DNA from: Agrobacterium fabrum str. C58
Lineage (GTDB): Bacteria > Pseudomonadota > Alphaproteobacteria > Rhizobiales > Rhizobiaceae
Assembly: GCF_000092025.1 (NCBI RefSeq)
Contig: NC_003064.2
Coordinates: forward strand, 186,001 to 250,000
DNA: 64,000 nucleotides
Direction: 5' to 3'
The notes beneath the pieces were generated by a model. It was not told the origin of the DNA, made no database searches, and worked only from the letters and a program-made list of their open reading frames with translations. Of the stretch, positions 9,103-64,000 are shown piece after piece; position 1 is the stretch's first letter; the number at the start of each line of letters is the position of its first letter. Position numbers and translations under genes: made by a program.

Positions 9103-9231
9103 GATGTCGTCCTTCTTTTTGAATTTCCGAGATTGACCGGCGGCGATAGATTTTGTTGAGCGTATTCCCAATTGATTGCGCTAACGGCCGGCTCGACATC
9201 CGGTGCGAACGCCGAGCCATTCTGCGATACC

Positions 9232-48543: not shown

Positions 48544-48566
48544 GGGTTGATGCAAAGCGGGGCGAG

Positions 48567-49679
48567 ATGATGCGTATGGCTAAGGCGGCAGAGAACGAGA
48601 CCGGGGGCATCATCTACGACGAGGTGGTGCGTATTCCGGCCCGGTCGCCGCGGGCCGCCGCCACTGCTCTGTTAGAAGACAATGCGCCGCTCGAAACGGC
48701 CAGCATCGGTGATGTTGCTCGCCTTGCAGGGGTCGCGCCGATCACGGTGTCTAGGGCGTTGCGCAATCCGGAAAAGGTAAGCGCGGAAAAGCGCGCCCGG
48801 ATTGAGGCTGCCGTCGAGCGTACCGGGTACAGGGTCAACCCCTTCGCCAGTGCGTTGAAAAGCGGCCGTTCGAATGTCGTCATGGCCTTTGCGTCCAATA
48901 TGTTCAGCGAGCAGTTCGCGCTTGCTCTGCATGCCTGCGCGAATGTGCTTGAGGAAGCCGGCTATCTTTTCCTCGTGGGTCAGACATCCTACTCATATGA
49001 TCGCGAAACGGCGGCGATCCGCTCGCTTCAGGCCCTCAAGCCCGCAGCAGTGATGTTTACCGGTGTCATCGAACTCGAACAAAACCGCGAAACACTTCGC
49101 AACCTCGGTATTCCGATCATGGAGACATGGGCGTTTCCGCGTGATCCCATCGACATGCTTGTTGGTTTTTCGAATACCGAAGCTGGCCGACTAGCGGCGG
49201 AGGCTCTCGCGGATGGCGGGTACAAAAAGGTTGGCTTTATTGGTAGAAGGGGAGGGCGTGGCGCCCTTCGCCTCAAGGGTTTTCGCGATAGTTGCAGGGA
49301 TTTGGGGCTCGAATTCGTTGGAGAATTCCTTAGCGATGAGGTCGCCGGCCCCTCGGACGGGCGACGCTGCCTGTCCACGCTTCTGGAAAGCGGAGCGAGC
49401 GTGGACGCGGTCTTCTGCGCAAATGACCTCCTTGCATTGGGAACCCTGATGGAGGCTCGTCGCCGTAAGCTTTCCATTCCCAAGGATTTCGGTGTTATCG
49501 GCTTCGGTGAGAGTGACATTGCCGCCGAAATACCCCCCGGTCTGACGACTGTCGGAATAGATAGCGCCCAACTGGGAAAGATCGTAGGCGAAATGCTGTT
49601 AAATCGTTTGTCGAAGGGCGAGATCGCCGCTCCAATTCGACGTGTAGACCTATTGGTCACGCATCGAGGAAGCGTATAA
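48567..49679 (+). CDS. LacI-family transcriptional repressor
   Basis: 370 residues from the ATG at 48567 (GGGGCGAG upstream); an ATG at 48576 is possible and the frame extends to 48507 inside the deacylase gene. An unusual 40-residue leader precedes the DNA-binding segment SIGDVARLAGVAPITVSRALRNPEKVS. The C-terminal sugar-binding-protein fold follows with VGFSNTEAGRLAAEAL and AVFCANDLLALG. The GntR/PurR-like operator repeats at 43235-43285 lie upstream of the operon that this gene closes, so autoregulated repression of the whole unit is likely. Confidence 0.92.
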   Translation: MMRMAKAAENETGGIIYDEVVRIPARSPRAAATALLEDNAPLETASIGDVARLAGVAPITVSRALRNPEKVSAEKRARIEAAVERTGYRVNPFASALKSGRSNVVMAFASNMFSEQFALALHACANVLEEAGYLFLVGQTSYSYDRETAAIRSLQALKPAAVMFTGVIELEQNRETLRNLGIPIMETWAFPRDPIDMLVGFSNTEAGRLAAEALADGGYKKVGFIGRRGGRGALRLKGFRDSCRDLGLEFVGEFLSDEVAGPSDGRRCLSTLLESGASVDAVFCANDLLALGTLMEARRRKLSIPKDFGVIGFGESDIAAEIPPGLTTVGIDSAQLGKIVGEMLLNRLSKGEIAAPIRRVDLLVTHRGSV

Positions 49680-50264
49680 GCAATTTGAACTGTTAGATTT
49701 TCAGTCGGATATCGAGTGTTGCCTGTTCGATTCCAGTCAAGAGCGAAGACTGCGACCGCCTTGCGCCTTCATCTCAGTCATTGTTTGCGGACGCTATTGA
49801 CCAGAAACGGGACGTTTGCACAACAGCTGATAAACGGCTGCCAAACCTGCGGAGAATGGCCGGTCCGATCGGACCTGAAATGATTAGTATCGCCACCCAC
49901 CCTGTGACGTCGCTGAAATCGGTTTCTCTCGAATTGAACCATTCGGTCCTCCGACCGTTCAAGAGGTACCACGAACTAAGGGCTGCTCAATTCAATGACG
50001 GACGAAGGCGGTAGCTGCGACCTCGATAGGGTGATCATCAGCATGTCATTGACCATCTTAAGGTTGAGTATAAACCGGAAATACATTCATGCGGTGTGAT
50101 CGATGATTTCGGCGAGGCACCGACGCCGGCGGTAAAGAGTTCGCGGTCAGTCATGGCCAAGCGTCCAAAATTCCAATACACGCTTCGTTGGGTTGACGAT
50201 GCCTGAGCCGGGGCGGCTGCCTGGAGGCCCGCTCCCACCACAGGAATCCCCCCGGTATAAATCC
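49680..50264. other. Intergenic region, possible relics only
   Basis: About 585 bases without a supportable gene. A rightward frame ending near 50206 (VEYKPEIHSCGVIDDFGEAP followed by KRPKFQYTLRWVDDA) has protein-like composition but no start signal and no recognisable family. Other frames are short. Confidence 0.4.
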
Positions 50265-51296
50265 TCAAGCGCCGTGCGGAAGGAACACGCCCCGGAAGCG
50301 CATCTTCCCGGTGGATAGCCGCTCATATGCCTCGGTTGCCTGCTCGAGGGCGAAGGTCTCGACAATCGGCTTGACCTTGCCCTTGGCGGCGAGATCGAGG
50401 ATTTCGGCGAGATAGTGCTGTCCGCCATGCGTGGACCCAACCACGCGTTGGCGCATCATGTGGAACGGCTTGCCGTCGGACGGGATCGAGAACGGCTTGC
50501 TGAAGTCGAGCGCGCAAAGAACGATGCGCCCGTCAGGCCTTACGCCCGCCATCGCTTTTTCGGCGGTGTCGAAGTCGTTGGTCGTAACCAGAAGAACGTC
50601 CGCACCGCCGGCCTCCAATAACTCTTTGCCATCGGCGACGACGATGTCTGCACCAAGATCGGTGGCCAACTTGTGCTTGTCGGGTGAATGCGTGATCGCG
50701 ATGGTCTCAAACCCCAAGGCTTTGGAGAACTGCACGGCGACGTGCCCCAGCCCGCCGATGCCAAGTACCGCAATTCTGTCACCAGGTTTGGGCTCGGCGT
50801 CGCGCAAGCCGCTCCAGGTCGTGTAGCCTGCGCACATCATGGGTGCGGCATCCGTGTAGTCGAGCCCGTCGGGTAATAACACTGTGCCTTCAGCAGAGAT
50901 CGCGATGTACTCTGCGTGCCCGCCTTGCGTCGCGAACCCCGTTGTCCTGGGTGAATCGCAGTTCATGGCTGTCTGGCCGGTCAACGGACGGTTCTGGCGG
51001 CAGTAGGAGCATCGTCCACAAGAGGACTGCACCCAGGTGGTGCCGACCCGGTCTCCCACCTTGCGCGTATGAACGCCCGCGCCGACCTCGATGATCTCGC
51101 CGACAACCTCATGGCCGGGGGTCTGCGGATAGATGTCGCCACCGGCACCCTGCGTCGCCCACACGTCCGTGTAGCACATGCCGGAGGCGTGGATTTTAAC
51201 AAGGACAAGTCCTGGCTCTGCCTTCGGAACGGGAACCTCTTGAACCTCCCAAGGCTGGTTCGCCCCGGTCATGACAACAGCTTTCATCTTCATCAA
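50265..51296 (-). CDS. Zinc-dependent alcohol dehydrogenase (AdhP-like)
   Basis: 343 residues; the ATGs at 51296, 51293 and 51287 are all possible starts. Catalytic zinc ligands lie in SGMCYTD and PGHEVVG, the structural zinc cysteines in CGRCSYCRQNRPLTGQTAMNC, of which three or four are conserved, and the NAD loop in GIGGLGHVAVQ. This is the pattern of the class that oxidises primary alcohols such as ethanol. It faces a LysR gene across 150 bases, which likely controls it. Confidence 0.92.
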   Translation of the reverse strand: MMKMKAVVMTGANQPWEVQEVPVPKAEPGLVLVKIHASGMCYTDVWATQGAGGDIYPQTPGHEVVGEIIEVGAGVHTRKVGDRVGTTWVQSSCGRCSYCRQNRPLTGQTAMNCDSPRTTGFATQGGHAEYIAISAEGTVLLPDGLDYTDAAPMMCAGYTTWSGLRDAEPKPGDRIAVLGIGGLGHVAVQFSKALGFETIAITHSPDKHKLATDLGADIVVADGKELLEAGGADVLLVTTNDFDTAEKAMAGVRPDGRIVLCALDFSKPFSIPSDGKPFHMMRQRVVGSTHGGQHYLAEILDLAAKGKVKPIVETFALEQATEAYERLSTGKMRFRGVFLPHGA

Positions 51297-51444
51297 CTTT
51301 TCCTCTCTTCGGCGGGCCGATCGCTGGATAGGTGGTCTGGGGACCTGCCAGCGAACAGCAAGGAGCCTGGTCCCTCATGCTGCTCCCCTACGCTCAATCT
51401 ATGCCGCATTGACTATCTGAACAATCTGATCAATTCTTGATGTC

Positions 51445-52386
51445 ATGATGAAAGCAATTCACCAATCAAAGGGCAATGATCTGGCTGCCTTTTCCGCATT
51501 CCTGGCGGTAGCGACCCATCGCAGTTTTCGGAGCGCCGCTGACGAGCTCAACATGACGCCCTCGGCGATCAGCCATTCGATTAAGGTTCTCGAAGAGCGG
51601 TTGAATGTCCGCCTCTTCAACCGAACGACTCGCAGCGTCTCGTTGACGGAGGCGGGTGAACGCCTTGCGTCCAAACTCAAGCCGGCAATGGCTTCAATCG
51701 AAGAAGCCGTCCAGGAGTTGGAGGGAAATGGTCCCGTCCCCAGTGGCACGGTGCGGATCAATGCCAGCGAAGGGGCTATCCGCTTAGTACTGCGGCCGGT
51801 GCTTGCACCCTTCTTGCGCGAGTATCCTCAAGTCCATCTCGACATAGTCAGCGATGGCAGACTGAGTGACATCGTTGCTGATGGTTTCGATGCCGGCATC
51901 CGATTGGCGGAGGCAGTACCAAAAGACATGGTGGCCATCCCGGTGATGGGAGAGGTTCGCTTTGCGGCTGTTGCGTCGCCTGAGTACTTCGAGCGTCGCG
52001 GATATCCGCTCATACCGCAGGATTTACACAGCCACGATTGCATCCGCTTCCGGTTTGAAAGTGGAGCAATCTATCGTTGGGAATTTGAACGCATGGGCGC
52101 TTCAGAAAGAATCAACGTTTCCGGGCCTCTCACATTGAGTGACCAGCCGCTCATGGTGGAGGCTGCAATCGATGGGATAGGTATTGCTTTCGTGCCTGAC
52201 CATCTTGCGACGGAAGCACTCGAACACGGTCGCCTGGAGCGAGTTCTGGAAGACTGGTGTCCGGCGCTTCCAGGATTATGTCTTTATTACTCTGGGCGTC
52301 GCCACGTATCATCTGGCCTCAGAGCGCTGATCAACATGCTGACTCACCGCCCTATGATACCGAGATCGGGATCGACGCCTTGTTGA
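51445..52386 (+). CDS. LysR-family transcriptional regulator
   Basis: 313 residues; ATG at 51445 or the next codon. The DNA-binding domain reads [26 protein letters not shown] and [15 protein letters not shown]. The effector domain follows ([25 protein letters not shown] in parts). Related in pattern to the gene at 20378-21277. Divergent from the alcohol dehydrogenase gene at 50265-51296. Confidence 0.93.
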
Positions 52387-52500
52387 CTGTCAGGATAAGG
52401 CATCGAATTGCGCAATGCTGTCGATCCTGGCCAGCGCCACCAGATCAAAACTGAGCTCGATCTCGCAAGGCGGAACCGACGCTGGCGACTGCCGAGCTGA

Positions 52501-52665
52501 ACGGTCGCGTCGATTCTGAGCCTCCGTTCTGACGGGATTGCTGAAAACGGGCTGCCCTGCGGTGTCCAGCTTGTCGGGTCACCACGCGCGGACCGGAAAC
52601 CGCTCGAATTTGCGCGCTCCTATGAGGAGGCCGCCAACATCAGGACCGGCAATGCCTTCGACTAA
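52501..52665 (+). pseudogene. Amidase C-terminal remnant
   Basis: After a stop at 52498-52500 the plus strand encodes ILSLRSDGIAENGLPCGVQLVG followed by FARSYEEAANIRTGNAFD and a stop at 52663-52665. NGLPxGVQLVG and the final helix are the C-terminus of amidase-signature enzymes (GatA/AtzF type). The remaining 400 or so residues, with the Ser-Ser-Lys centre, are absent upstream, so this is the tail of a lost gene. Confidence 0.75.
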
Positions 52666-52669
52666 ACAT

Positions 52670-53824
52670 CTAGATATCACGTCGCGGCGCCTGCGACCCT
52701 CGGTGAAGAGCCGTTACTGCAGCTAGAAGCCTGGCGACCTCGTTGCCGTCGATTGCCTCGATGCGATAGCGGTCATAGGGCGTACCGCCTGTCGTTTCTG
52801 CGGCGATCATCGCATTGACCACCGCCTCTTCTACGCTTTGCACCACGGCTTGATAGACCGGATCGAGCACATCGTCATTGACCATGACGATGCTCAACAG
52901 CGGTCCGGCTTTGTGGCGCATCGGATGGGGATTGGCAGTCGAGAAGGCTAGAAAAATGTCGCCGGAGTTACTTCCGCCTACTGTGCCGTTGCGGCCGATG
53001 CCGATCGCGCCGCGTCGCGCCAGCTTCTGCAATTGGTGCGGTGCGAGCGGCACGTCGGTGGCGATCACGACGATGATGGAGCCGCGCTCAGAAAGGTCTG
53101 GGTCGGTCTGTTGGAGGAGTTTGCCAACGGGTAAGCCGCCGATCGACAGCCAATCCCGTTGACCGTGGTTAGCCTGCACCAACGCCGCTACGGTAAATTC
53201 CTCACCACCGACGGCGATCCTTCGCGAGGCGGTGCCCGTGCCGCCCTTGAAGCCGTAGGCGATCATGCCCGTGCCACCGCCAACGCTACCCTCGGCGACT
53301 GGGCCGGTGTTCGCCCCGTTCAATGCCTCGAAAACGTGATCGACCGTTACATGCTGGCCATTGATGTCATTGAGTAAGCCGTCATAGGTTTCCGCCACCA
53401 CCGGCATGATCCACAATTGTTCATCGCCCTCGTAGGTCGCGCTATAGCGATCAATCATCCAGCGCGCGGCGCTATGATGGGCAATGCCAACGCTATGGGT
53501 GTTGGTAATCAGGACAGGGCCGACAAAGTAGCCTCCGTCGTCGATCCAGTGCGAGCCTGTCATCTCGCCATTTCCATTGAAACGATGGATTCCGGCAAAC
53601 ACCGGTACCGGCTCGCTTGCCGTCGCATGCGGCAGGATCGCTGTCACGCCGGTGCGCACTGGCAGTTTGCGGCCGGGGCGGGGCACCTCCTCCCGGATCG
53701 TCGAAACGCCGACATGGATGCCAGCTATGTCGGTTATGGCGTTAAGCGGCCCGGGCATGCCGTCGAAGGCAATGCCGAAGTCGCGCGCGCGTTTTTGGCA
53801 CGCTTTGTTCGTCTCGTTGATCAT
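52670..53824 (-). CDS. P1-family aminopeptidase (DmpA-like)
   Basis: 384 residues. The DmpA/L-aminopeptidase-D-esterase pattern is clear: N-terminal DFGIAFDGMPGPLNAITDIAGIHVG in parts, GSHWIDDGGYFVGPVLITNTHSVG in parts, and ERGSIIVVIATDVPL, where self-cleavage before the serine creates the N-terminal nucleophile. Such enzymes remove N-terminal D- or L-residues or hydrolyse small amides and esters. It is the last gene of the leftward importer operon, 28 bases after the DeoR gene. Confidence 0.92.
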   Translation of the reverse strand: MINETNKACQKRARDFGIAFDGMPGPLNAITDIAGIHVGVSTIREEVPRPGRKLPVRTGVTAILPHATASEPVPVFAGIHRFNGNGEMTGSHWIDDGGYFVGPVLITNTHSVGIAHHSAARWMIDRYSATYEGDEQLWIMPVVAETYDGLLNDINGQHVTVDHVFEALNGANTGPVAEGSVGGGTGMIAYGFKGGTGTASRRIAVGGEEFTVAALVQANHGQRDWLSIGGLPVGKLLQQTDPDLSERGSIIVVIATDVPLAPHQLQKLARRGAIGIGRNGTVGGSNSGDIFLAFSTANPHPMRHKAGPLLSIVMVNDDVLDPVYQAVVQSVEEAVVNAMIAAETTGGTPYDRYRIEAIDGNEVARLLAAVTALHRGSQAPRRDI

Positions 53825-53852
53825 TGCGTTCTCCGGTTTCCAGCCGTCTCTT

Positions 53853-54614
53853 TCAGCAAACAGTCAGCTTCACGCCACTGCTATCCAGGCTTTCCGTTAA
53901 ATCCTCACCCGGTGCTTTGTCGGTAACGACATGGGCAATGTCACGCCAAGGTGCATAGCGCGCCGGAAACAAGCGGTCGTGCTTGGAATGATCGGCGACC
54001 ACGATGGTTCGCGCTGCGCGGGAGACCATCGCGCTATAGACAGCACCACATTCGAGCAGGGCGTCCGAGGGGCCATCGGGACCCAGACCGCTGGCGCCAA
54101 GTATGGTGAAATCGGCATAGAAGGAATTGAGGAACGACACCGCGTGCGCACCGACGGTCGCGCCCTCGGTGGCGTGATAATCGCCGGGAAGCATGACCAC
54201 CTTGATGGTCGGATTGATGGCGAGCACGGTTGCCACGCCGAAGGAATGCGTGAGTACGGTGATGTTCTTCATCTCGACTGCGATGCGCCGTGCGGTGTGC
54301 ACTGTCGTCGAGCCGGAGCCGATCATCAGGACCTGAGCACCTTTCAGGATTTGCACAGCCGCTTTGGCGATCCGTTCGCGCTCGCCGACAAAGAGCGTAT
54401 GGCGCTCGGTGACCGAAGGCTCGGTGGAAAGCGAACGCACAGCACCGCCATAGGTGCGGTTGAGTAGGCCTTGTTCGGTCATCTCGTCGAGATCGCGCCG
54501 GATCGTCTCGGTTGAGACGTCGAGTCGCCGGGCGAGTTCCGCAACGCGCAGGCTCGGCGCTTGGTTGAGTTCAGTCAGGATACGCTCCTGGCGCACGCTT
54601 TTTGGTTTTTTCAT
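53853..54614 (-). CDS. DeoR-family transcriptional repressor
   Basis: 253 residues from the ATG at 54614, which has AGGAG upstream and overlaps the stop of the preceding gene as ATGA. The N-terminal winged helix reads LRVAELARRLDVSTETIRRDLDEM, followed by LLNRTYGGAV, and the C-terminal sugar-phosphate-isomerase-like sensor has MIGSGSTTVH and TIVVADHSKHDR. DeoR proteins usually sense a phosphorylated metabolite. A phosphotransferase in the same region (62297-63286) could make the inducer. Confidence 0.92.
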   Translation of the reverse strand: MKKPKSVRQERILTELNQAPSLRVAELARRLDVSTETIRRDLDEMTEQGLLNRTYGGAVRSLSTEPSVTERHTLFVGERERIAKAAVQILKGAQVLMIGSGSTTVHTARRIAVEMKNITVLTHSFGVATVLAINPTIKVVMLPGDYHATEGATVGAHAVSFLNSFYADFTILGASGLGPDGPSDALLECGAVYSAMVSRAARTIVVADHSKHDRLFPARYAPWRDIAHVVTDKAPGEDLTESLDSSGVKLTVC

Positions 54615-55105
54615 CGCTCCTGGCTCCCCTGGCTTGTACAAGTCTGCTCCGCCATCCACGCCCGGCCGCCGGCCATCGTGCCTGATTGTCCCAAACGAGG
54701 CGTATCCGCGCCGACGGCCGGCATTGGCAAGGTCAACGGTCGCGAGGCAGAAAGCAATGGCGTCGCCGCATTGCCGTTTGGCGGATGATTTTTTGTAACG
54801 TCACGCAAGGTCATGAGCTGCGCGGCTTCGCCATAGTCAGCCCAGGTGAGACCTGCGCGAGGCAGGTCCACCGGAGCGATGTCGATCGGCGGGTCTGCAT
54901 CGGACACCTCAAGCCAGACAGCGGTATCGGCGCGAACGAAACCCGGCCGAGTGAGGGACCAACTCAGTACGGCCTGTTTAGCGGCGAAACGGACCCCGGG
55001 GCTCTTGTCGAGGCAAAGGACTTCAGGTGCTTTCATCGGCCAAGTTGTGTCAGGAACGTTCCGGGCGAACAAGTCCAGGCTGCAGTCCATCCCCGATTGT
55101 CTCAT
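54611..55105 (-). CDS. Unrecognised protein coupled to isochorismatase and DeoR genes
   Basis: 164 residues. The gene overlaps the isochorismatase gene upstream and the DeoR gene downstream by ATGA on both sides, which is strong evidence that it is translated. The sequence starts MRQSGMDCSLDLFARNVPD, holds WLEVSDADPPIDIAPVDLP in the middle and a proline/alanine-rich end. No signal peptide, membrane segment or motif that I can name is present. Confidence 0.6.
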   Translation of the reverse strand: MRQSGMDCSLDLFARNVPDTTWPMKAPEVLCLDKSPGVRFAAKQAVLSWSLTRPGFVRADTAVWLEVSDADPPIDIAPVDLPRAGLTWADYGEAAQLMTLRDVTKNHPPNGNAATPLLSASRPLTLPMPAVGADTPRLGQSGTMAGGRAWMAEQTCTSQGSQER

Positions 55106-55803
55106 GCCCCCGTCAGCGGCAGATAGCCGATCACCTCGTCCGTGGTCATTACGTTGGCATAGATCATGTGCAGCCGCTGGAGCTCGCTTTCATGTAGGTC
55201 CACCGAGCCGGCGGCGCAGGCATCATCGACAACGATGACGTCGAAGCTCTCATCGGCGAGGCTGCGTACGGTTGAGGAGACACACTGGTCGGTAAAAATG
55301 CCAACGCAAACGACGTGGGTGATCCCCATATTTGCCAGCAAAAGCCTGAGATTCGTGCCTGTCAGTGCGCTGTCGGTGGTTTTGGTGACAACGATCTCGC
55401 CGTCTCGCGGAGCGATTTGCGGTAGGATCTGCGAGGCTTCCTCATCCTTTGGGAGCAGAAGGTTATTCCACCCTGGTTTCCGCTGGCTGAGTGAACGGTC
55501 GCGTCCGTCGGCGCGAAGACAGGCAATTCGCGCGAAAAACACGTCGAGGCCGAGCGCGCGAAACCGTTCCAAGAGATGCTGGGTATTGGGAATGACAGTG
55601 CCGTGCATCCGCTCGTGGAACGGTGCCCAGGCATGGTAACGCACGAGATCGTTACCCGATAGAGCGTCGGGATCAGGGCGATCAAGATAAGTGTTCTGCA
55701 TGTCAATGACGAGGAGCGCCACCTTGCCCTTTTCGAGCACTGGGTCCTCGGGCTCCGGCGCGCCCTGGTAATAGAAGGAACGGCGTTCGGTTTTCCAGTT
55801 CAT
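55102..55803 (-). CDS. Isochorismatase-family cysteine hydrolase
   Basis: 233 residues from the ATG at 55803, six bases after GAGGAC; an ATG at 55821 overlaps the permease gene. The catalytic triad is visible: Asp in LLVIDMQNTY, Lys in VVTKTTDSALTGT and Cys in VGIFTDQCVSST. The family cleaves amides or vinyl ethers (ureidoacrylate, nicotinamide, carbamates). It follows the importer genes by ten bases and precedes an unrecognised gene, so it probably hydrolyses an amide derived from the imported compound. Confidence 0.92.
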   Translation of the reverse strand: MNWKTERRSFYYQGAPEPEDPVLEKGKVALLVIDMQNTYLDRPDPDALSGNDLVRYHAWAPFHERMHGTVIPNTQHLLERFRALGLDVFFARIACLRADGRDRSLSQRKPGWNNLLLPKDEEASQILPQIAPRDGEIVVTKTTDSALTGTNLRLLLANMGITHVVCVGIFTDQCVSSTVRSLADESFDVIVVDDACAAGSVDLHESELQRLHMIYANVMTTDEVIGYLPLTGA

Positions 55804-55813
55804 CGCGGCGTCC

Positions 55814-56620
55814 TCATGCATCCGCCTGCCGGCGGCGAACCAGCATGATGGTAAGCCCGCCGGCCAGCAACAATGCGGCGGCGGAAAGCGTGCTCATCGT
55901 GCCAAGCGCCGGCACCATCGGCGAATAGCCGGCAACCATCTTCGAATAGAGCCATTTCGGGATCGTCGAGTCGACGCCTGCCGTATAGAGCGACAGCGGA
56001 AAATTGCCCCAGGAGAGCAGGAACGCGAACAGGGCGCCTGACCAGATGCCCGGCCAAAGGATTGGCAAGGTTATCTCGCGCAGAATGAACCAGCGGCTCG
56101 CTCCAAGGTCACGGGCGGCCTCCTCCAACGTCGGATCGAAGGAATAGACCTGAATGGCGATGACCAGTGTCACCACCGGAACGATCCAGACGAGATGAGC
56201 GACGACGGCCGTCTGCCAACTCGGATTGATGCCAAGTGCATTGAACCACAGGAGCAGCGCGAGCCCCAGCACGGGCTGCGGAAAGAACACAGGCAGAAGG
56301 ATGGCCTTCTGGAACAGCTTGCGTCCCTTCCACTCGTAGCGGGCAAAGGCGAGCGCGCCAAAGAAGGCGAGGATCACGGAGACCAGAGTGACGATGAAAG
56401 CGATAAGAATGGAGTTCTGTACCAGCGTCTGGATCTCGAGCGAGGCCAGGGTCTTGCCCCACCATTCCGTTGAAAAGACGCGGATCGGGAAGCCGAAATA
56501 GCGCCCCTTGGACAGGCCGGCCAATGCTCCGCAAAGGATCGGGAGGTATACGGCAAGGACGACGAAAGCGGTCCAGGCCTTGACGAAAGCGCGGGCGCGG
56601 ATTTGCGAGCGGGTTTCCAT
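55814..56620 (-). CDS. Spermidine/putrescine-type ABC transporter permease (PotC-like)
   Basis: 268 residues with six membrane helices. The EAA loop is LEEAARDLGASRWFILREITLPIL, and the overall pattern is that of PotC/YdcV subunits. It follows the PotB-like permease by three bases and forms the membrane heterodimer with it. Confidence 0.93.
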   Translation of the reverse strand: METRSQIRARAFVKAWTAFVVLAVYLPILCGALAGLSKGRYFGFPIRVFSTEWWGKTLASLEIQTLVQNSILIAFIVTLVSVILAFFGALAFARYEWKGRKLFQKAILLPVFFPQPVLGLALLLWFNALGINPSWQTAVVAHLVWIVPVVTLVIAIQVYSFDPTLEEAARDLGASRWFILREITLPILWPGIWSGALFAFLLSWGNFPLSLYTAGVDSTIPKWLYSKMVAGYSPMVPALGTMSTLSAAALLLAGGLTIMLVRRRQADA

Positions 56621-56623
56621 GTC

Positions 56624-57520
56624 TCACTTCTTTCCCAGAATGCGGTCGAGATCGAGCTTGGACAGGACGTAAAGGGCAAGCCCGCTGACGATGGCGACGA
56701 GCAGGAGGGCGAGCGCCGAGCCAAGCGGCCAATTCTGTGCATATGTGAAAGCAATCTCGATATCCTGCGCGATTGTGATAACCGACTGTCCGCCGAGGAT
56801 CTTGGATTCGGCGATCGCGCCTGCCCCGAGCACAAAGGTGAGCAACATGCCGATCAGGATACCGGGCATGGCGAGTGGCAACTCGATCTCCCGCCAGATC
56901 ATCAGCCGATCAGCCCCAAGATCGCGGGCCGCATCGACGAGGTCCCGGGGGATCATGGCAATGCCAAGCGACATTGGGAAAAGCATGAAAGGGAGATAGA
57001 CATAGATCATGCCGAAGAGGATGGCACCAGGTGTGTAAAGAAGCTCAGGTCCGCCTGAGAAGCCGAGCCACTTCAGCCCGCCGTCGAGTACGCCGTTCTT
57101 GATAAAAAAGAGCACCCAACCATAGAGGCGGACATTTTCCGACACGAACAGCGGAAAGACGAAGAGCACGCCGACAAGGCCAGACCACCTGCCAAACATT
57201 CGATTAAGTCCATAGGCGATCGGATAGGCGATTACTGCCAATAATATGACTGTGGCCAAGGCATAGGCGATCGACCAGGCAAATGACATCCAAACGGTGT
57301 TAGAGGCGTCAAAGATCACAGCAAAGTTGGCGAATGTGAATGAGCGAAATACCGTGAAGCTCTTCGGCGTGGCGAAGGCGTAGGCGGCCACCGTCAGCAG
57401 CGGAGCGAGAAAGCCAAGCAGCAGAAGGATCGTGACAGGCGCGGCGGCGCGCAACCCTGCAGAGAGGGATGGCAAAGGGCTTTTCCCGCCGGCCGTTTCG
57501 GCGTGGGTCATGGTTGCCAT
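56624..57520 (-). CDS. Spermidine/putrescine-type ABC transporter permease (PotB-like)
   Basis: 298 residues from the ATG at 57520 (GGGAG upstream); the frame extends to 57589 inside the ATPase gene. Six membrane helices after a short cytoplasmic segment; the EAA loop lies in VDAARDLGADRLMIWREIELPLAM. Located between the ATPase and PotC-like genes of the same operon. Confidence 0.92.
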   Translation of the reverse strand: MATMTHAETAGGKSPLPSLSAGLRAAAPVTILLLLGFLAPLLTVAAYAFATPKSFTVFRSFTFANFAVIFDASNTVWMSFAWSIAYALATVILLAVIAYPIAYGLNRMFGRWSGLVGVLFVFPLFVSENVRLYGWVLFFIKNGVLDGGLKWLGFSGGPELLYTPGAILFGMIYVYLPFMLFPMSLGIAMIPRDLVDAARDLGADRLMIWREIELPLAMPGILIGMLLTFVLGAGAIAESKILGGQSVITIAQDIEIAFTYAQNWPLGSALALLLVAIVSGLALYVLSKLDLDRILGKK

Positions 57521-57521
57521 A

Positions 57522-58652
57522 TCAGTCTCCCACCACGATGGCGTCGCTGGCATCCCAGCCGATGGTAACGAGGTCGCCTGAACTGACACCAGAGACGGCT
57601 GAGCGTGCGGCCTCGACCAGGTAGATACGGTCCCCCGAATGAACCTGGTACTGCATGCGCGAGCCGAGAGAGTATTCGTTGTAGATCGTACCGGAGATCA
57701 GATTGTCAGCGCTCGATGCGCCGGTGATGAAGCGCATGGTTTCGGGCCGGACGATGACAGTTGCCGTCTCGCCAATCGCTTCTGCGACCGGCGCAACGGT
57801 GATCGGCTTGCCGTCGGCAAGCGTCCAGGCGCCCTCACCCTTACGCTTGACTTCGAAACTGTTGACCTCGCCAAAAAACTCCGCGACGAAGCGCGTTGCC
57901 GGCTTGGTATAGATTTCCTCGGGCGTGCCAATCTGAACAAGGTGGCCACGGCTCATCACCCCGACGCGGTCAGACATGACCATGGCTTCCTCAAGCGAAT
58001 GGGTGATGTAGACAAAGGTCTTGCCGCTTTCGCGGTGCAGGTCCTTCAGCTCTTTTTCCAGAACTTTCTTCAGTTTGTAGTCGAGTGCCGATAGCGGCTC
58101 GTCGAAGAACAGAACGTCGGGATCGTAGGCAAAGGCGCGAGCGAGCGCCACGCGCTGTTTTTCGCCGCCGGAGCAACGCATCACGTTCTTGGAGTAATAG
58201 CTCTCGGGCAGGCGCACCATGCGCATGAATTCGAGCGCGCGGATTCTCCGTTCGGCAGCCGGCATTTTGCGGACCTTCAGCGGAAACTCGATGTTCTCGC
58301 CGACTGTCTTGTGCGGGAAAAGCGCAAGTGACTGGAAGACGAGACATGTTGGCCGCTTGTCGGCCGGCACGCTGTTGATCACCTCGCCACGCAGCGTGAT
58401 ATAGCCTTCTGATGGTGATTCCATGCCGGCCAGCATGCGCAGAAGTGTCGTCTTGCCGGACCCGGAGGGTCCGACAATGGTGACGAATTCGCCCTCCTTG
58501 ATATCGACACTGATGCCGTCAACCGCGGCAAAATCGCCGAAAATCTTTCGAACGTCGACCAGTTGCAGTACCGGTTTCGGCGCCGGTTGCACTTGGGCTT
58601 GGATTGTCGATGAGGTGTCGGGCAGGCTGGGCGAGATCATCGCAAGGCTCAT
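57522..58652 (-). CDS. Spermidine/putrescine-type ABC transporter ATPase (PotA-like)
   Basis: 376 residues from the ATG at 58652 (GGAGC upstream). Walker A GPSGSGKTT (61-69), signature CSGGEKQR (160-167), Walker B VLFFDEPLSALD and H-loop ITHS. The C-terminal 120 residues form the TOBE regulatory domain (VIVRPETMRFI). The signature starts with Cys in place of the common Leu and has E-K in place of Q-Q, a departure worth noting, though the rest looks intact. It lies 29 bases after the binding-protein gene. Confidence 0.92.
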   Translation of the reverse strand: MSLAMISPSLPDTSSTIQAQVQPAPKPVLQLVDVRKIFGDFAAVDGISVDIKEGEFVTIVGPSGSGKTTLLRMLAGMESPSEGYITLRGEVINSVPADKRPTCLVFQSLALFPHKTVGENIEFPLKVRKMPAAERRIRALEFMRMVRLPESYYSKNVMRCSGGEKQRVALARAFAYDPDVLFFDEPLSALDYKLKKVLEKELKDLHRESGKTFVYITHSLEEAMVMSDRVGVMSRGHLVQIGTPEEIYTKPATRFVAEFFGEVNSFEVKRKGEGAWTLADGKPITVAPVAEAIGETATVIVRPETMRFITGASSADNLISGTIYNEYSLGSRMQYQVHSGDRIYLVEAARSAVSGVSSGDLVTIGWDASDAIVVGD

Positions 58653-58681
58653 GTTCTTTGCTCCGTCGGGACAGGCTTGGC

Positions 58682-59821
58682 TCAACCGCGCAGTCGCTTG
58701 GCAGCGGTCATCAGTTCCAGTGCCTTGTCGTAGTCGGGTACGATGTCGTATTGCGCCGAGCGCGCCATGTCCTCCTCAACGGTATCCCACTGGATGGCTT
58801 CCATCTCGTCCTTTGTGAAGAGTTCAAAGCACTTGGGGTTGCCCATCTGCGTTACCGGATTGAATGTGCCTTCGGCAAAAGCGACGGTGTGGGCGACTTT
58901 CGGATCCTGGACGTATTTCAGGAACTCCACCGCAAGCGGCGAAAGCTCGGGATTGTTGACCGTCGAGGTGATCTCGATCCAGGAAATGCCGCCCTTGCCG
59001 TCCATCGGCCCCCTGAGTGGCGTGATCGCACGCAAGTTCGTATAGCCGTCGGCGCGCGCGGGAGAAACGGAATAGGTGCCACCGGTCATATAAAGGTCGA
59101 TCTCGCCCGAGACGAGAGCCTGATTGAGTGACGCCATGTCGCCGACCATTTTGGCGCCCTTGAACACCTTTTCAGCGGTTTCGGCGAAGACCTTGAACTG
59201 TTCCTGTGTGTGCTCCTTGAACGGGTCTATGCCGGCGATCAGGAAAATGTTGAACACGTTCCAGTCGTCGGATTCCTGTATTCCGTACTTGCCAGCGAGC
59301 GAGGCGTCATTGAACAGGTCCCAGCCCTGCTCCTCCGCCGTTGACTTGCTGATCTTGTCTGTGTTGACCACAAAGCTATAGGGCCCGAAGCGTTGCGCCA
59401 TACCGAGCAGGTCCCCGCCGTCGTCGCTCATCGCCCAACGATAGGGTGCCTTAAAGTTGGGGAGCATGGCATCGAAATAGGGTTCGAACTCGGCGCGCGG
59501 CAGCGGCTTGATCAGGCCGGCCGGCCCCATGACCTTGCGGGCCCAGGGATTATTGACGTTGATGAGGTCCCAGATTTTGGTTTCGCCCGCGCGTAGCCGG
59601 TTGATCATGGTCGGGTCGTTGGTCAGGCTCTCGGCCTTGACCGTAGCAGACTCGCTGGAGCGGAACGGATCCAGGACCTGCGCGGAATTGTAGCCCTCCC
59701 AGCACAGGATATTCAGCTCTTTTTCGCGGGCCGCGAAGGCACGCGTGGCGCTTGCCAGCGGACCAGCAAAAGCGGCCGCACCCATCATCTGCATCATATT
59801 GCGTCTGGAGATTTTCATCAT
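58682..59821 (-). CDS. PotD/PotF-like periplasmic binding protein
   Basis: 379 residues, GGGGAA before the ATG. The signal peptide carries SRRNMMQMM and a hydrophobic core ending near AFAARE, so Tat export is possible. The mature part begins LNILCWEGYNSAQVLDPF and shows VNNPWARKVM and YTNLRAITPLRG, the pattern of polyamine/aminoalkylphosphonate-binding proteins. An aspartate-rich segment (MSDDGGDLLG) may contact an amine. It is the first gene of the leftward operon that ends with the P1 peptidase. Confidence 0.92.
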   Translation of the reverse strand: MMKISRRNMMQMMGAAAFAGPLASATRAFAAREKELNILCWEGYNSAQVLDPFRSSESATVKAESLTNDPTMINRLRAGETKIWDLINVNNPWARKVMGPAGLIKPLPRAEFEPYFDAMLPNFKAPYRWAMSDDGGDLLGMAQRFGPYSFVVNTDKISKSTAEEQGWDLFNDASLAGKYGIQESDDWNVFNIFLIAGIDPFKEHTQEQFKVFAETAEKVFKGAKMVGDMASLNQALVSGEIDLYMTGGTYSVSPARADGYTNLRAITPLRGPMDGKGGISWIEITSTVNNPELSPLAVEFLKYVQDPKVAHTVAFAEGTFNPVTQMGNPKCFELFTKDEMEAIQWDTVEEDMARSAQYDIVPDYDKALELMTAAKRLRG

Positions 59822-60125
59822 CGTGGTTCCCCTTTTCTCGGCCGCGTGAATGGCTCACGGATCAATTATGTTGGAACTTTGTCGCAAAAATGTGTGATTT
59901 ACAACACGTATTTTCTGCTTCATGTTGGAAAGCGTAACAGGAGGCACAGCGTCCGTAGACCAATGTGATCGTCGCGGAATATGGCTGCTAACGATCTAAT
60001 ATTGCTTTGCATTTCTTTTGTGCAGAAGGAGCGTGATGCGTGCCGATGTTTTGATCTGACGCCTCGAATTGAGGCAATAGCGCCTCGTTAATTTGTGAAA
60101 GTTACAACAAAAAAGTGAGTGGAAC
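59822..60125. promoter_or_regulatory. Divergent promoter with candidate DeoR operators
   Basis: TGTGTGATTTACAACA (59891-59906), TGTTGGAAAGCGTAACA (59923-59939) and TGTGAAAGTTACAACA (60094-60109) share TGT..(C/T)AACA ends with 10-11 bases between. ATGTTGGAA occurs twice (59868 and 59922). Similar sequence lies upstream of the kinase gene at 63334. The region must hold promoters for both the importer operon and the SDR gene. Confidence 0.6.
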
Positions 60126-60899
60126 ATGTTGAAGTCATTGCAAGGCAAGACCGTCATCGTTACCGGCGCAAGCCGAGGAATTGGCAAGGGCATAGCACTG
60201 CGCTTCGGGGAGGCCGGCCTGAATGTCCTCGTCGTGTCGCGCAGCCAGGTCGATGCCGACAGGGTGGCATCCGAAATCGGAGTAAACGGTTCGGGGTTTG
60301 CGGCGGATGTCAGTACAGAGGAGGGCTGCAAGGCGATGGTCGATGCTGCCGTAACCCGCTATGGCGGGGTTAACGTGCTGTGCGCAAATGCCGGAATCTT
60401 CCCGGCGGCGAAGCTGGGGGAAATGTCGGCGGCCGATTTCGACCACGTGATCTCAACCAATCTCAAAAGTACCTTTCTCAGCGTTTCCGCGGTGTTGCCG
60501 GCGATGACCTCGGCCGGTGCGGGCCGTATCATCATCACCTCGTCGATCACTGGGCCGATCACCGGTTATCCGGGCTGGTCGCATTATGGGGCAAGCAAGG
60601 CCGGCCAGCTTGGCTTCATGCGTACTGCCGCGATTGAGCTGGCGCCAAAGAACATTACGGTCAATGCCGTTATGCCAGGCAATATCATGACTGAGGGGCT
60701 CGAGGGCAACGGTCCAGATTATATCGCCACGATGGAGGCCTCCGTGCCATTGCGTCGTCTGGGTATGCCGGCGGACATCGCGAACGCCGCGCTGTTTTTT
60801 GCATCGGAGGAGGCAGCCTATATCACCGGCCAGTCGATCGTCGTCGATGGCGGTCAGATCCTGCCGGAATCGCTCGGTGCGCTGGAGGTAATGGGCTGA
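60126..60899 (+). CDS. Short-chain dehydrogenase/reductase (FabG-like)
   Basis: 257 residues. Cofactor loop GASRGIGKGIALRF, NAGIFP, catalytic serine in ITSSITG and YGASKAGQLGFMR for Tyr/Lys, then GQSIVVDGGQILPES. It is divergent from the importer operon and convergent with the class-III PLP enzyme gene, sharing a hairpin with it. It may oxidise a hydroxyl or reduce a carbonyl of the imported compound. Confidence 0.92.
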   Translation: MLKSLQGKTVIVTGASRGIGKGIALRFGEAGLNVLVVSRSQVDADRVASEIGVNGSGFAADVSTEEGCKAMVDAAVTRYGGVNVLCANAGIFPAAKLGEMSAADFDHVISTNLKSTFLSVSAVLPAMTSAGAGRIIITSSITGPITGYPGWSHYGASKAGQLGFMRTAAIELAPKNITVNAVMPGNIMTEGLEGNGPDYIATMEASVPLRRLGMPADIANAALFFASEEAAYITGQSIVVDGGQILPESLGALEVMG

Positions 60900-60908
60900 A
60901 ATTGAAAG

Positions 60909-60935
60909 AAGCCGGGCGACATCATCGCCCGGCTT
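60909..60935. terminator. Shared hairpin between converging SDR and PLP-enzyme genes
   Basis: AAGCCGGGCG (60909-60918) and CGCCCGGCTT (60926-60935) form a perfect 10-bp stem with loop ACATCAT. It lies ten bases after the SDR stop and 14 bases before the end of the leftward gene, so it can end transcription in both directions, although the T tracts are short. Confidence 0.75.
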
Positions 60936-60948
60936 GCCTGCAATGTCT

Positions 60949-62286
60949 TCAGGCGGCTCGGCGCGCCTGGAGAATAATGTCCAGGGTGCCGGTGAAGAGG
61001 TCGACATCCTCGTTCGAAAAACACAGTGGCGGCCGGATCTTCAGCGTCGCGCCATATTTGCCCGCTGCCCCGATCAATATACTGTTGTGCCTCAACTGAT
61101 TGATCGCATGGGTAGCGCGTGTGCTGTCCGGCTCCCCCGTGGCGGGGTCGACAAAATCAAGACCGATGAAAAGGCCGGCGCCCCGCACATCGCCGATTTC
61201 CGAATGCCGACTTTGCAAAGCCTGGAGCGACTGCTTGAAGTAACCGCCGACAGTGGCCGAGCGTTCGATCAGACCTTCCTCCTCAATCACTCGCAGCACG
61301 GCATGGCCTGCGGCGGCAGCTACCGGATTGCCTCCGAAGGTATTGAAATAACCGGTTTCCTCGCAGAACCTCTGGAGCAGGTCAGGTCGTGTTACGACGC
61401 CGCCCATGGGGAAGCCATTGCCCATCGGCTTACCCATCGTGACAATGTCGGGCGTGACACCGTGACGCTCGAAGCCCCAAAGGCTGCCTCCCGTCCGGCC
61501 GAAGCCCGGTTGGACCTCATCGGCGATCAACAGGCCGCCGGCTCGGTGCACCACGTCAACCGCCTCCTTCAGGAAACCTGCAGGATCGGCATAGATGCCG
61601 TCACTGGAAAAGATTGTGTCAACGATCAACGCAGCGAATTTAATGCCTCGTGAATTGAGCTCGTTGATTGCCTGTTCCACGGACGCGGCGAAGTTTGAGG
61701 CCACGCTCATGCCATCACGAGCGGCGGGCGCTGGAATGATTGCCACAAATGCGGCGGGTTTGCGCTTGCGCAGCGACGAGGGGGAGACTTCCGTCACCAG
61801 CGCAGTGTTGCCGTGATAGGCTGCCTCGGTGACGATGAAGCCTTCGGCCCCGGTCCCAATGCGGGCGATGCGCAGGGCGAGGTCGTTACTCTCGCTGCCC
61901 GTACAGGTCAAAACGACATTGCTGAGGCCTGCCGGGAATTTGGATAGCAGATTTTCGGTGTAAGCCTCGACGACGCGGTTGAGATAGCGCGTGTGGATGT
62001 TGAGTTCGCCGACCTGTCGGGCGATGGCCTCGACCACCCGTGGATGGCAGTGGCCGACCGACGGTACGTTGTTGTAGACGTCGAGATACTTGCGTCCGCC
62101 GGCGTCATACAGATAGGCGCCCTGCGCGCTCACCATCTCGATCGGCTGCTCATAAAAGAGTACGGAGGAAGCTCCAAAAGTTGCCTGGCGCTTGGCAACG
62201 CGCTCTGCAAGTTCAGCGGGAAATCCCTCGGTACGGCTCGCATCAAAACGGTTGAGGTCGAGAATTTCCTTAGTGGTGGCGCTCAT
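60949..62286 (-). CDS. Class-III PLP enzyme (aminotransferase or phospho-lyase, AGXT2L-like)
   Basis: 445 residues from the ATG at 62286 with GAGGAGAG upstream; the longer frame overlaps the kinase gene. Class-III aminotransferase features: NVPSVGHCHPRVVEAI, TCTGSESNDLALRIAR, Asp256 in IADEVQPGFGRTG and the PLP lysine K286 in MGKPMGNGFPMGG. The pattern, with a 30-residue N-terminal extension and GHCHP, is close to ethanolamine-phosphate and 5-phosphohydroxylysine phospho-lyases, which eliminate phosphate and ammonia. The gene is 10 bases downstream of a hydroxylysine-kinase-like gene, which supports the lyase role over transamination. Confidence 0.88.
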   Translation of the reverse strand: MSATTKEILDLNRFDASRTEGFPAELAERVAKRQATFGASSVLFYEQPIEMVSAQGAYLYDAGGRKYLDVYNNVPSVGHCHPRVVEAIARQVGELNIHTRYLNRVVEAYTENLLSKFPAGLSNVVLTCTGSESNDLALRIARIGTGAEGFIVTEAAYHGNTALVTEVSPSSLRKRKPAAFVAIIPAPAARDGMSVASNFAASVEQAINELNSRGIKFAALIVDTIFSSDGIYADPAGFLKEAVDVVHRAGGLLIADEVQPGFGRTGGSLWGFERHGVTPDIVTMGKPMGNGFPMGGVVTRPDLLQRFCEETGYFNTFGGNPVAAAAGHAVLRVIEEEGLIERSATVGGYFKQSLQALQSRHSEIGDVRGAGLFIGLDFVDPATGEPDSTRATHAINQLRHNSILIGAAGKYGATLKIRPPLCFSNEDVDLFTGTLDIILQARRAA

Positions 62287-62296
62287 TGGGCTCTCC

Positions 62297-63286
62297 TCAA
62301 CGGTGCTCGGCCAGATAGCACTCGGCGAGCGCCACAGTGCCATCGGTGTAGGCCGTACCCATGGACTGGGCCGTCGGCGTTTCTGCGTGGGAAGCGATCC
62401 ATGCGGTGAGTTGCATGCGGCGAAGCATAATGAACATCGGCAGGGCAGCCTCGTGTTGCGCATCGAGAGGTGCGACGCGGCGATAGCCTTCGAGCCAGGC
62501 CGCCATCAGGTCTGGAATGAAGGGCTCATGTTCCATGAAGCTGATCGCGGCGGCAAAATCGTAAGCGAACCAGGACAGACCGCAATCGTCGAAATCGATC
62601 ACTCCAAGTCTGTCACCGTCGACCAGAAGGTTCGCGGCGCGCATGTCGCAGTGAACAAGGCCGAAGCGCTCCTCCCCATAGCCGTAGGCGGAGGTCTGTG
62701 TTTCGAGCAGCGCGTGCGTTCTTTCTAAAACGGACTTCCCATCGGGCTTCAGCCCAAGGGCGTCACGCCAGTCGCCCCAATAGGCGCCGTTCCCAAGGAT
62801 GCGGTTGAAGTTCCAGGTCTTTCGAATGAAATTCTCCGGACGCGTCCATCTGCGGCTATGCGCATGCAGTTTCGCGTTAATTTCGCCGAGCGTCCTGTAC
62901 CAGTGGACGAGGTCGGATTCAGCATCTGGTTCCTTGCCGGCCATGTATTCGAAGGCGACGGCGTGGCGCATGGTTTCGCCGTCTGAGAAGATTTGAAGGA
63001 GGCTGCCATCGTTCGCTGAGATCGGCCGGGGCGTGACAACCACCCCATCCTGCCTCAGCGCATCGATCCAAGCGAGCTCAGAAAGGATCTCTGCTTCAGT
63101 ATGGTAGTCGGGCCGATGCACTCGCACGATCAGGTTGCGCCCGCTGTTTTCGTCGGCGATCCGAAAAGTCGCGTTCTCGGAGATCGTCAAGAGCGTCAGT
63201 TTGGCCTCGGACGAGAGGCCCCACGCTGACGAAAGGTATTTCACGCCTTGTGTCAGCCGCGAAAGAAAATCTGTATTGTACAACAT
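62297..63286 (-). CDS. Aminoglycoside-phosphotransferase-fold kinase (hydroxylysine-kinase-like)
   Basis: 329 residues from the ATG at 63286; the frame is open to 63364, but the operator palindrome and leader lie there. Kinase residues are visible: His212 and Asp214 in LVHCDMRAANLL and Asp231/Asp233 in VIDFDDCGLSWFAYD. The pattern and length fit the AGPHD1/HYKK and homoserine-kinase-II-like branch. With the phospho-lyase-like enzyme downstream it would phosphorylate the hydroxyl of an amino alcohol or hydroxylated amino acid. The gene starts the operon. Confidence 0.88.
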   Translation of the reverse strand: MLYNTDFLSRLTQGVKYLSSAWGLSSEAKLTLLTISENATFRIADENSGRNLIVRVHRPDYHTEAEILSELAWIDALRQDGVVVTPRPISANDGSLLQIFSDGETMRHAVAFEYMAGKEPDAESDLVHWYRTLGEINAKLHAHSRRWTRPENFIRKTWNFNRILGNGAYWGDWRDALGLKPDGKSVLERTHALLETQTSAYGYGEERFGLVHCDMRAANLLVDGDRLGVIDFDDCGLSWFAYDFAAAISFMEHEPFIPDLMAAWLEGYRRVAPLDAQHEAALPMFIMLRRMQLTAWIASHAETPTAQSMGTAYTDGTVALAECYLAEHR

Positions 63287-63333
63287 CTGTGCTGCCTTAT
63301 CTGGGCGAATGTTTGGTGAATACAACAATAAAA

Positions 63334-63351
63334 ATGTTGGAAATGCAACAT
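63334..63351. promoter_or_regulatory. Perfect palindrome upstream of the kinase gene, putative DeoR operator
   Basis: ATGTTG-GAAATG-CAACAT is a perfect inverted repeat with six-base arms and six-base spacer, 48 bases upstream of the kinase start codon. It shares its form with the sites in the importer/SDR promoter. Confidence 0.7.
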
Positions 63352-63736
63352 TAATCGCAAGCACTCAACTCCGTCCCGAGGCGCGGCCAGCTGGTTTGGG
63401 GATTCATGTCGCGCTTGGAACATGCCTCGGCTTTCATACTGCGACACGGAGATGGGGCGGAGGTTGATTTGGAATGAGCGGTTATGGCGGATACCACGAG
63501 ATAATTGCTGACACCAAGCCCCGACAGGTATCGCCAGTTGTCTAACTAAAAGTGCGTTGAGATTGTCGACACACGCCTTTACGGCTTCCCAGTCAGCGAT
63601 GGTCAGCAAGGAGTGAACATGGGCGGCGAGAGCAAAGCGCTTCGAGCAAGGTGTGTAAATCCCGTCCACATGAGTCCGTCTATATCCATGAAAGAGGACA
63701 TTATCGCGGGCAATTAACGTAATGAGCTCGGCAGGC

Positions 63737-63785
63737 ATTAAGAGGTCGCGAGTTCGTTTCCGCTCAAGGCGGAGAACCTCTTAAT
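63737..63785. repeat. Nested perfect inverted repeat
   Basis: Outer arms ATTAAGAGGT (63737-63746) and ACCTCTTAAT (63776-63785) are perfect, and between them TCCGC-TCAAG-GCGGA (63759-63773) forms a second perfect hairpin. The element could be an RNA structure, a protein-binding site or the footprint of a mobile element; nothing around it decides. Confidence 0.6.
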
Positions 63786-64000
63786 CTGAACGACTGAACT
63801 GGAAGTCAGGCGGAAGCTTTTCACCCCAGCGTGGTGCTTACTTTCGTCAGATTTTCAAGGTTCGTGGGTTACCTCCTCGACATTCCATCATGTGCGCTCT
63901 TTCGTCGAGGAGTGATCCAGCATTTCTCGAACGATGGAAATTCGGGATGCAAGAGGAGCCATCCCAAAGTGCGTTATTCATGCCATGGATGAAGTAGGCA

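Follow-up and report, generated by a model that had tools for sequence, protein, structure and literature searches.

In the ethanolamine-phosphate and 5-phosphohydroxylysine pathways, as they are generally known, a kinase and a pyridoxal phosphate (PLP) dependent phospho-lyase convert an amino-alcohol into an aldehyde, ammonia and phosphate. A related enzyme set, namely an APH-type kinase, a short-chain dehydrogenase/reductase (SDR) and a class-III PLP enzyme, occurs in the RMM/Aut microcompartment loci for aminoacetone or 1-amino-2-propanol, in which, as far as the available portions of the reports go, the PLP enzyme is treated as an aminotransferase (PMC4207490, PMC6620236). Aminopropanol is also the linker of corrinoids, and the amidohydrolase CbiZ, involved in corrinoid remodelling in Rhodobacter sphaeroides, hydrolyses the amide adjoining it according to the accessible part of PMC7733943. 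Here we analyse a gene cluster from Agrobacterium fabrum str. C58 that combines elements of all these systems. It lies in a window of 64,000 nucleotides, corresponding to contig positions 186001-250000 of a 5.67 Mb genome.

The cluster probably constitutes a DeoR-controlled regulon through which 1-amino-2-propanol (possibly aminoacetone, ethanolamine or their amides) serves as a source of carbon and nitrogen, no microcompartment being involved and the substrate being assigned by homology. The enzymatic steps, the imported compound and the binding and ligand of the regulator are predictions drawn from computed gene content, conservation, clade membership, fold match and palindromes. A PotABCD-type ATP-binding cassette (ABC) importer would take up a small cationic amine or a conjugate of it, from which amide hydrolases (an isochorismatase-type enzyme and a P1 peptidase; CbiZ or a proline-iminopeptidase type in relatives) would free the amino-alcohol. 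The SDR, judging from its nearest relative, would interconvert aminoacetone and 1-amino-2-propanol. From family and structure, the kinase is predicted to form aminopropanol O-phosphate, and the phospho-lyase to convert this into propionaldehyde, ammonia and phosphate. A general aldehyde dehydrogenase, e.g. the chromosomal ExaC orthologue, could then yield propionate, to be activated to propionyl-CoA. The DeoR protein probably binds TGTTG/CAACA palindromes and senses a phosphorylated intermediate. The features are, in window coordinates:

52670..53824, minus strand: S58/P1 peptidase (DmpA type), accessory amide hydrolase (PF03576, 368.7 bits; best solved match 1b65, 540 bits)
53853..54614, minus strand: DeoR-family regulator (PF08220 and PF00455)
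54611..55105, minus strand: decayed cbiZ (adenosylcobinamide amidohydrolase)
55102..55803, minus strand: isochorismatase-fold cysteine hydrolase, probable amide/ureide hydrolase (PF00857, 124 bits)
55814..56620, minus strand: ABC permease, PotC type (best NCBIfam model PotC)
56624..57520, minus strand: ABC permease, PotB type (best NCBIfam model PotB)
57522..58652, minus strand: ABC ATPase, PotA type (best NCBIfam model PotA)
58682..59821, minus strand: periplasmic binding protein, PotD/PotF fold
59866..60110, no strand: divergent importer/SDR promoter with TGTTG/CAACA half-sites
60126..60899, plus strand: SDR, probable 1-amino-2-propanol dehydrogenase/aminoacetone reductase
60949..62286, minus strand: class-III PLP enzyme of the phospho-lyase clade
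62297..63286, minus strand: APH-fold amino-alcohol kinase
63323..63350, no strand: operator-like double palindrome upstream of the kinase

All genes listed in an initial annotation of this stretch (importer, hydrolase, peptidase, DeoR regulator, SDR, kinase and PLP enzyme) are present with intact frames, and its division into three transcription units, running from importer to peptidase on the minus strand, SDR on the plus strand and kinase-PLP on the minus strand, is plausible from the strands. The cbiZ remnant had been overlooked.

The closest solved kinase by sequence, sharing the same fold, is the 6ef6-type aminopropanol kinase (comparison of 20 of 21 kinases plus that of the window), and the earlier label of a hydroxylysine-kinase-like protein is accordingly abandoned. 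By homology, the enzyme would phosphorylate 1-amino-2-propanol. Among solved structures the PLP enzyme matched the phospholyase 5g4i (357 bits) and the ethanolamine-phosphate phospho-lyase ETNPPL (6tor, 324 bits), the next best match scoring 192. In the tree it grouped with phospho-lyases (support 96/96, with a long-branch warning for the PDB rows and the L114 row, of which 5 residues were extracted, left out), apart from dialkylglycine decarboxylase and two class-III enzymes. Its affiliation, which the initial annotation had made decisive, is thus not with the ordinary class-III enzymes tested; its clade also includes the shell-locus enzyme of R. jostii RHA1. Homology likewise favours the kinase plus phospho-lyase chemistry proposed at the outset, in which this enzyme is predicted to release phosphate and ammonia from a phosphorylated amino-alcohol. 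Compared with the ethanolamine-phosphate and 5-phosphohydroxylysine pathways, the kinase subfamily differs, an SDR and an importer are added and the proteins are separate rather than fused. The best NCBIfam model of the PLP enzyme is PRK06148, a fused model of 1015 positions, and scores against PRK06148 and PRK06149 are far under their cut-offs (440 vs. 1128 and 374 vs. 973 bits) because kinase and PLP enzyme are here two separate genes. Four kinase orthologues (L076, L077, L090 and L098) have no PLP enzyme nearby.

The best solved matches of the SDR were 6ci8 and 6ci9 (E 2e-90 and 3e-90), which we take to be the aminopropanol dehydrogenase. The importer shares with the PotABCD spermidine/putrescine importer its ABC architecture and a binding protein whose PotD/PotF fold was confirmed by fold match, with aromatic and acidic residues invariant among 28 of the 34 listed binding proteins plus that of the window. 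It differs in that PotA, PotB and PotC stay below the equivalog cut-offs (312 vs. 482, 132 vs. 348 and 122 vs. 326 bits, respectively) and in that the binding protein is 13-18% identical to the best solved polyamine binders, with no solved relative retrieved by sequence at 1e-3.

Conservation was assessed in the best 80 of 142 confirmed kinase loci from a contig scan of relatives, 64 of them flanked by 8 kb or more on each side, calling genes at identity thresholds of 35-60% by gene and at least 40% coverage. Among these 64 fully flanked loci, the PLP enzyme occurs in 60, the SDR in 50, DeoR in 47, each of the four importer parts in 37 and the isochorismatase in 21, which bears out the conserved co-localisation anticipated by the initial annotation. 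The SDR is divergent from the importer in 33 loci, as in the window, and follows it in the same direction, with kinase-PLP divergent, in nine others (L083, L085-L087, L091, L093, L095, L100 and L108), while five Thalassospira loci keep SDR, kinase, PLP enzyme and DeoR without the importer. The maintenance of the gene set despite rearrangement argues for one pathway. The cluster is patchy, as the kinase had no match at 1e-40 in five other genomes of the same genus that were compared. Regarding the fate of the aldehyde, the two Hyphomicrobium loci, L093 and L100, have a propionate-CoA ligase-like gene after the SDR (749/711 bits vs. propionate-model cut-offs of 955/827; acetate-CoA ligase, 652 vs. 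657), an ExaC dehydrogenase above cut-off is found in L085 and a 90% relative in L091, and one ExaC above cut-off is encoded on another contig of the A. fabrum genome itself.

In A. fabrum LBA645 this locus is annotated as part of pAt, a plasmid of 542,868 bases (kinase identity 99.7%). In L044 a RepABC repC gene (8528-9820) adjoins kinase-PLP-DeoR, which makes a plasmid location likely for the module of Rhizobium sp. RU20A as well. A more divergent cluster on pAt of A. tumefaciens CFBP5877 (L117, kinase 67%) has genes for urea carboxylase and allophanate hydrolase immediately upstream and gave no isochorismatase or peptidase matches.

The trio that characterises RMM/Aut loci, SDR, kinase and class-III PLP enzyme, is complete in the window. 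A search of 297 family genomes at 1e-40 matched the kinase in 40, and the flanks of 10 of the eleven with a 42-44% kinase were surveyed (G026 left out). Bacterial microcompartment (BMC) shell genes were found in seven of the 10 (G010, G048, G038, G293, G275, G210 and G043). G048 has four candidate shell proteins, PF00936 being present in two and PF03319 in one, with a 209-residue protein without Pfam match; compared with those of R. jostii RHA1, the BMC-H protein is 71%, the two larger ones 60-62% and the EutN type 45% identical. The SDR and the full set of four importer genes occur in five of the seven shell genomes; G043 shows, at a contig edge, the SDR with three of the importer genes, and G293 has neither importer nor SDR. 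The isochorismatase adjoins the kinase in G010 and G048, and DeoR is found at 41-45% in four shell genomes. The other three genomes surveyed (G282, G126 and G240) gave no shell, importer or SDR match. Shell proteins had no tblastn match at 1e-5 in the window or in L031-L110, and PF00936 had none in the A. fabrum genome, the E. coli and Synechococcus elongatus controls being positive. Similarly, the cluster gene list contains no CoA-acylating aldehyde dehydrogenase, and no match of at least 35% to the L211 enzyme was found in the window. Importer, SDR and kinase are therefore encoded in some genomes with a shell and in others without one, the window being of the latter kind.

Besides lacking shell and CoA-acylating dehydrogenase, the window differs from RMM/Aut loci, as portrayed in the available portions of PMC4207490 and PMC6620236, in its extra amide hydrolases and in that an ABC importer takes the place of the permease and DeoR that of GntR. 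The initial annotation regarded its combination of genes as undescribed. The enzyme set, SDR included, and its link to aminopropanol are in fact known from microcompartments; no description of the shell-free, importer-fed form, nor of a link with CbiZ, was found in the open-access literature, and the accessible part of a 2021 microcompartment catalogue (PMC8217296) does not mention a shell-free form.

The cbiZ remnant corresponds to a gap in the LBA645 gene table. A tblastn search with the copy of Rhizobium terricola (L036) recovered 58% identity over 148 residues and a second piece in another frame, and PF01955 (CbiZ) scored 15.9 bits against a cut-off of 27, compared with 173 in L036 and 163 in L041; a full-length PF01955 domain is thus absent from the window and present in related clusters. 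CbiZ is encoded in 8 of the 80 loci (L033-L036, L040, L041, L046 and L081; matches of 205-248 residues, open frame of at least 220), between isochorismatase and DeoR in L033, L034, L036 and L041, as in the window, also preceding DeoR in L035, L040 and L046, and elsewhere in the locus in L081; short pieces remain in L031, L032, L037 and L038. In the 297 family genomes, a close kinase (1e-100) is present in 18, CbiZ in 13 and both in five (Fisher p 4e-4, in a test that ignores the relatedness of the genomes, itself a weakness of our proposal). CbiZ lies within the cluster in all five, although in G009 the cluster is split over two contigs. The linkage with CbiZ is independent of kinase homology and points to the same molecule, aminopropanol. 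The likeness to the R. sphaeroides remodelling system, as far as the accessible text of PMC7733943 describes it, is the amidohydrolase itself; the difference is that here cbiZ sits with amino-alcohol catabolic genes. No Rfam family reached its gathering score in window positions 48000-64000, nor in the cbiZ loci searched (seven of the eight, L081 excepted). L140, one of the eight family genomes with CbiZ but no close kinase, carries CbiZ side by side with Btu-like corrinoid uptake genes (named by eye) and a phospho-lyase, the latter placed by the tree next to part of the window's group (94/93).

Upstream of the kinase (63323-63350) two perfect dyads overlap, CAACA-N7-TGTTG and TGTTG-N6-CAACA. 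Counting the window with the 80 loci, 46 of 81 regions upstream of the kinase carry such a dyad, compared with a mean of 0.29 and a maximum of 2 in shuffles and with 32 of 1600 random 360-mers from the same loci. The importer/SDR promoter of the window has half-sites only (59869, 59902, 59923 and 60105), and among 34 such regions a spaced dyad occurs in 2 and half-sites number 102, vs. 33.8 in shuffles. The similar promoter palindromes initially noted are therefore exact at the kinase and less strict at the importer. DeoR presence tracks the kinase-promoter dyad across loci (8 of the 80, with short flanks and no DeoR, left out), in support of the regulatory link first suggested.

The S58 peptidase, whose best solved match we take to be DmpA, has GGSNSG at residue 283, presumably of the Gly-Ser cleavage site type. 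As a core member it was rejected, since it occurs in 11 of the 64 fully flanked loci (8.7 kb off in one, L058) and is mostly found elsewhere in the family: 81 of 297 genomes have it, four of them with the gene in the cluster by coordinates (G000, the genome of the window, G003, G171 and the split cluster of G009). Its pairing with a polyamine-type importer, emphasised in the initial annotation, is thus accessory in this cluster and recurs outside it: relatives at 65-66% directly follow a different Pot-type importer in L220 (2362-3441) and L221 (13475-14566), with a 33% kinase about 10-12 kb away and a phospho-lyase-like PLP gene (46-50%) beside that kinase. Five genomes, these two included, have a 65-66% relative 12-18 kb from a 33-35% kinase. 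The isochorismatase residues D34, K141 and C174, in motifs VIDMQN, VVTKT and TDQC, are presumably the catalytic triad of this fold. The enzyme stands beside SDR and kinase without the importer in two fully flanked Salipiger loci, L082 and L084; near the R. jostii shell locus an isochorismatase is annotated, yet the hydrolase of the window gave no match there. Proline-iminopeptidase-type (pip) genes occur in 8 of 80 loci, 7 of them among the 64 fully flanked. A mutual exclusion of S58 and pip-type genes was considered and found unsupported, for although they never share a locus, such an absence of overlap has a chance probability of 0.29 (11 and 8 of 80 loci). According to the available text of PMC7301841, PipR makes a pip gene responsive to HEHEAA, an amide of ethanolamine, which offers a precedent for amides of amino-alcohols while also favouring ethanolamine. 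The idea that an imported amide is cleaved first gains indirect support from the CbiZ, proline-iminopeptidase-type and isochorismatase hydrolases in the clusters.

Six loci (L198, L199, L200, L206, L207 and L209) combine a window-type isochorismatase with a class-III aminotransferase-like gene in Liv-type ABC clusters (named by eye), five of them with a second isochorismatase, and apparently represent another pathway. The surroundings of this isochorismatase in L206 and L208 resemble PipR loci, with a peptide-type ABC transporter, an autoinducer-binding-like gene and a gene of the pip type (also by eye).

Several other pathways might explain the cluster. One is an ethanolamine pathway, in which ethanolamine would be released from its amide and converted to acetaldehyde by kinase and phospho-lyase, while the SDR would have some other substrate. 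We consider this unlikely, even though ethanolamine-phosphate phospho-lyase is the second-best solved match of the PLP enzyme, ethanolamine permease genes are annotated near kinase relatives, the PipR precedent concerns such an amide and ExaC is named an acetaldehyde dehydrogenase; it would leave the conserved SDR without a role, a C3 compound is indicated by cbiZ as well as by the propionate-CoA ligase-like neighbour, and the kinase structure is nearest to the aminopropanol kinase. A larger hydroxylated amine (hydroxylysine, hydroxyputrescine or similar) would undergo the same chemistry and suit a polyamine-type importer, given the fold and invariant residues of its binding protein and PRK06148 as the best model of the PLP enzyme; it seems improbable to us, as both fused models remain far under their cut-offs, as separate genes must, the kinase again points to aminopropanol and the linkage with cbiZ would go unexplained. 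Hydroxylysine in particular was rejected as the favoured substrate on the fused-model scores and the kinase relationship. We also give little credence to two neighbouring pathways, one formed by P1 peptidase, isochorismatase and importer and the other by the kinase/PLP pair: isochorismatase orthologues at about 60% do occur in Liv-type ABC clusters without the kinase, and the peptidase is mostly found elsewhere, in two genomes directly after another Pot-type importer, but kinase, SDR and importer are kept as a set under two different gene orders and also where a shell is encoded, and the isochorismatase accompanies SDR and kinase without the importer (L082, L084) or adjoins the kinase (G010, G048).

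The 1-amino-2-propanol pathway, which we favour, must itself be set against a number of observations that weigh against it. The kinase is 42% identical to 6ef6, and genes annotated as ethanolamine permeases lie near relatives at about 40%, so that ethanolamine is possible. Absences among the 64 loci amount to 14 for the SDR, 17 for DeoR, 27 for the importer and 4 for the PLP enzyme. The gene lists show no aldehyde dehydrogenase in the window's cluster, PrpE and ExaC neighbours are limited to two loci each with the PrpE-like gene under curated cut-offs, and, with respect to threonine dehydrogenase as an aminoacetone source, none of 30 matches in the A. fabrum genome exceeds the Tdh cut-off. In the seven shell genomes no phospho-lyase of the window's clade was found, a different class-III enzyme (best NCBIfam model, acetylornithine transaminase) being present instead, so that a simple 'same pathway minus the shell' does not fit. 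Finally, 8 of the 13 cbiZ genomes lack a close kinase, cbiZ is decayed in the window itself, and the aminopropanol kinase of M. smegmatis is reportedly (S)-specific, to go by the title of the paper, whereas the corrinoid linker has the (R) configuration. CbiZ feeding a window-type kinase thus fits badly; the substrate of CbiZ may here be a different aminopropanol amide, or the stereochemistry of the kinase may not be the same.

A further, rather doubtful, possibility is that the ancestral regulon, with a working CbiZ, served to obtain the aminopropanol linker from cobinamide or other corrinoids as a nutrient and was repurposed in A. fabrum after cbiZ decayed. CbiZ would cut the corrinoid amide, and kinase and phospho-lyase (or the lyase alone on aminopropanol phosphate) would burn the piece to propionaldehyde, which, if true, would mean that B12 is in part catabolised by this route.

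Our results predict substrates for genes among WP_010974502-512, apparently uncharacterised, link the corrinoid amidohydrolase CbiZ to amino-alcohol catabolism and indicate a context in which P1 peptidases and isochorismatase-like hydrolases may act physiologically. They suggest a shell-free counterpart of the microcompartment pathway for aminopropanol, and the occurrence of shell-bearing and shell-free versions within one bacterial family, with the same importer and dehydrogenase, constitutes a natural experiment on the purpose of the shell.

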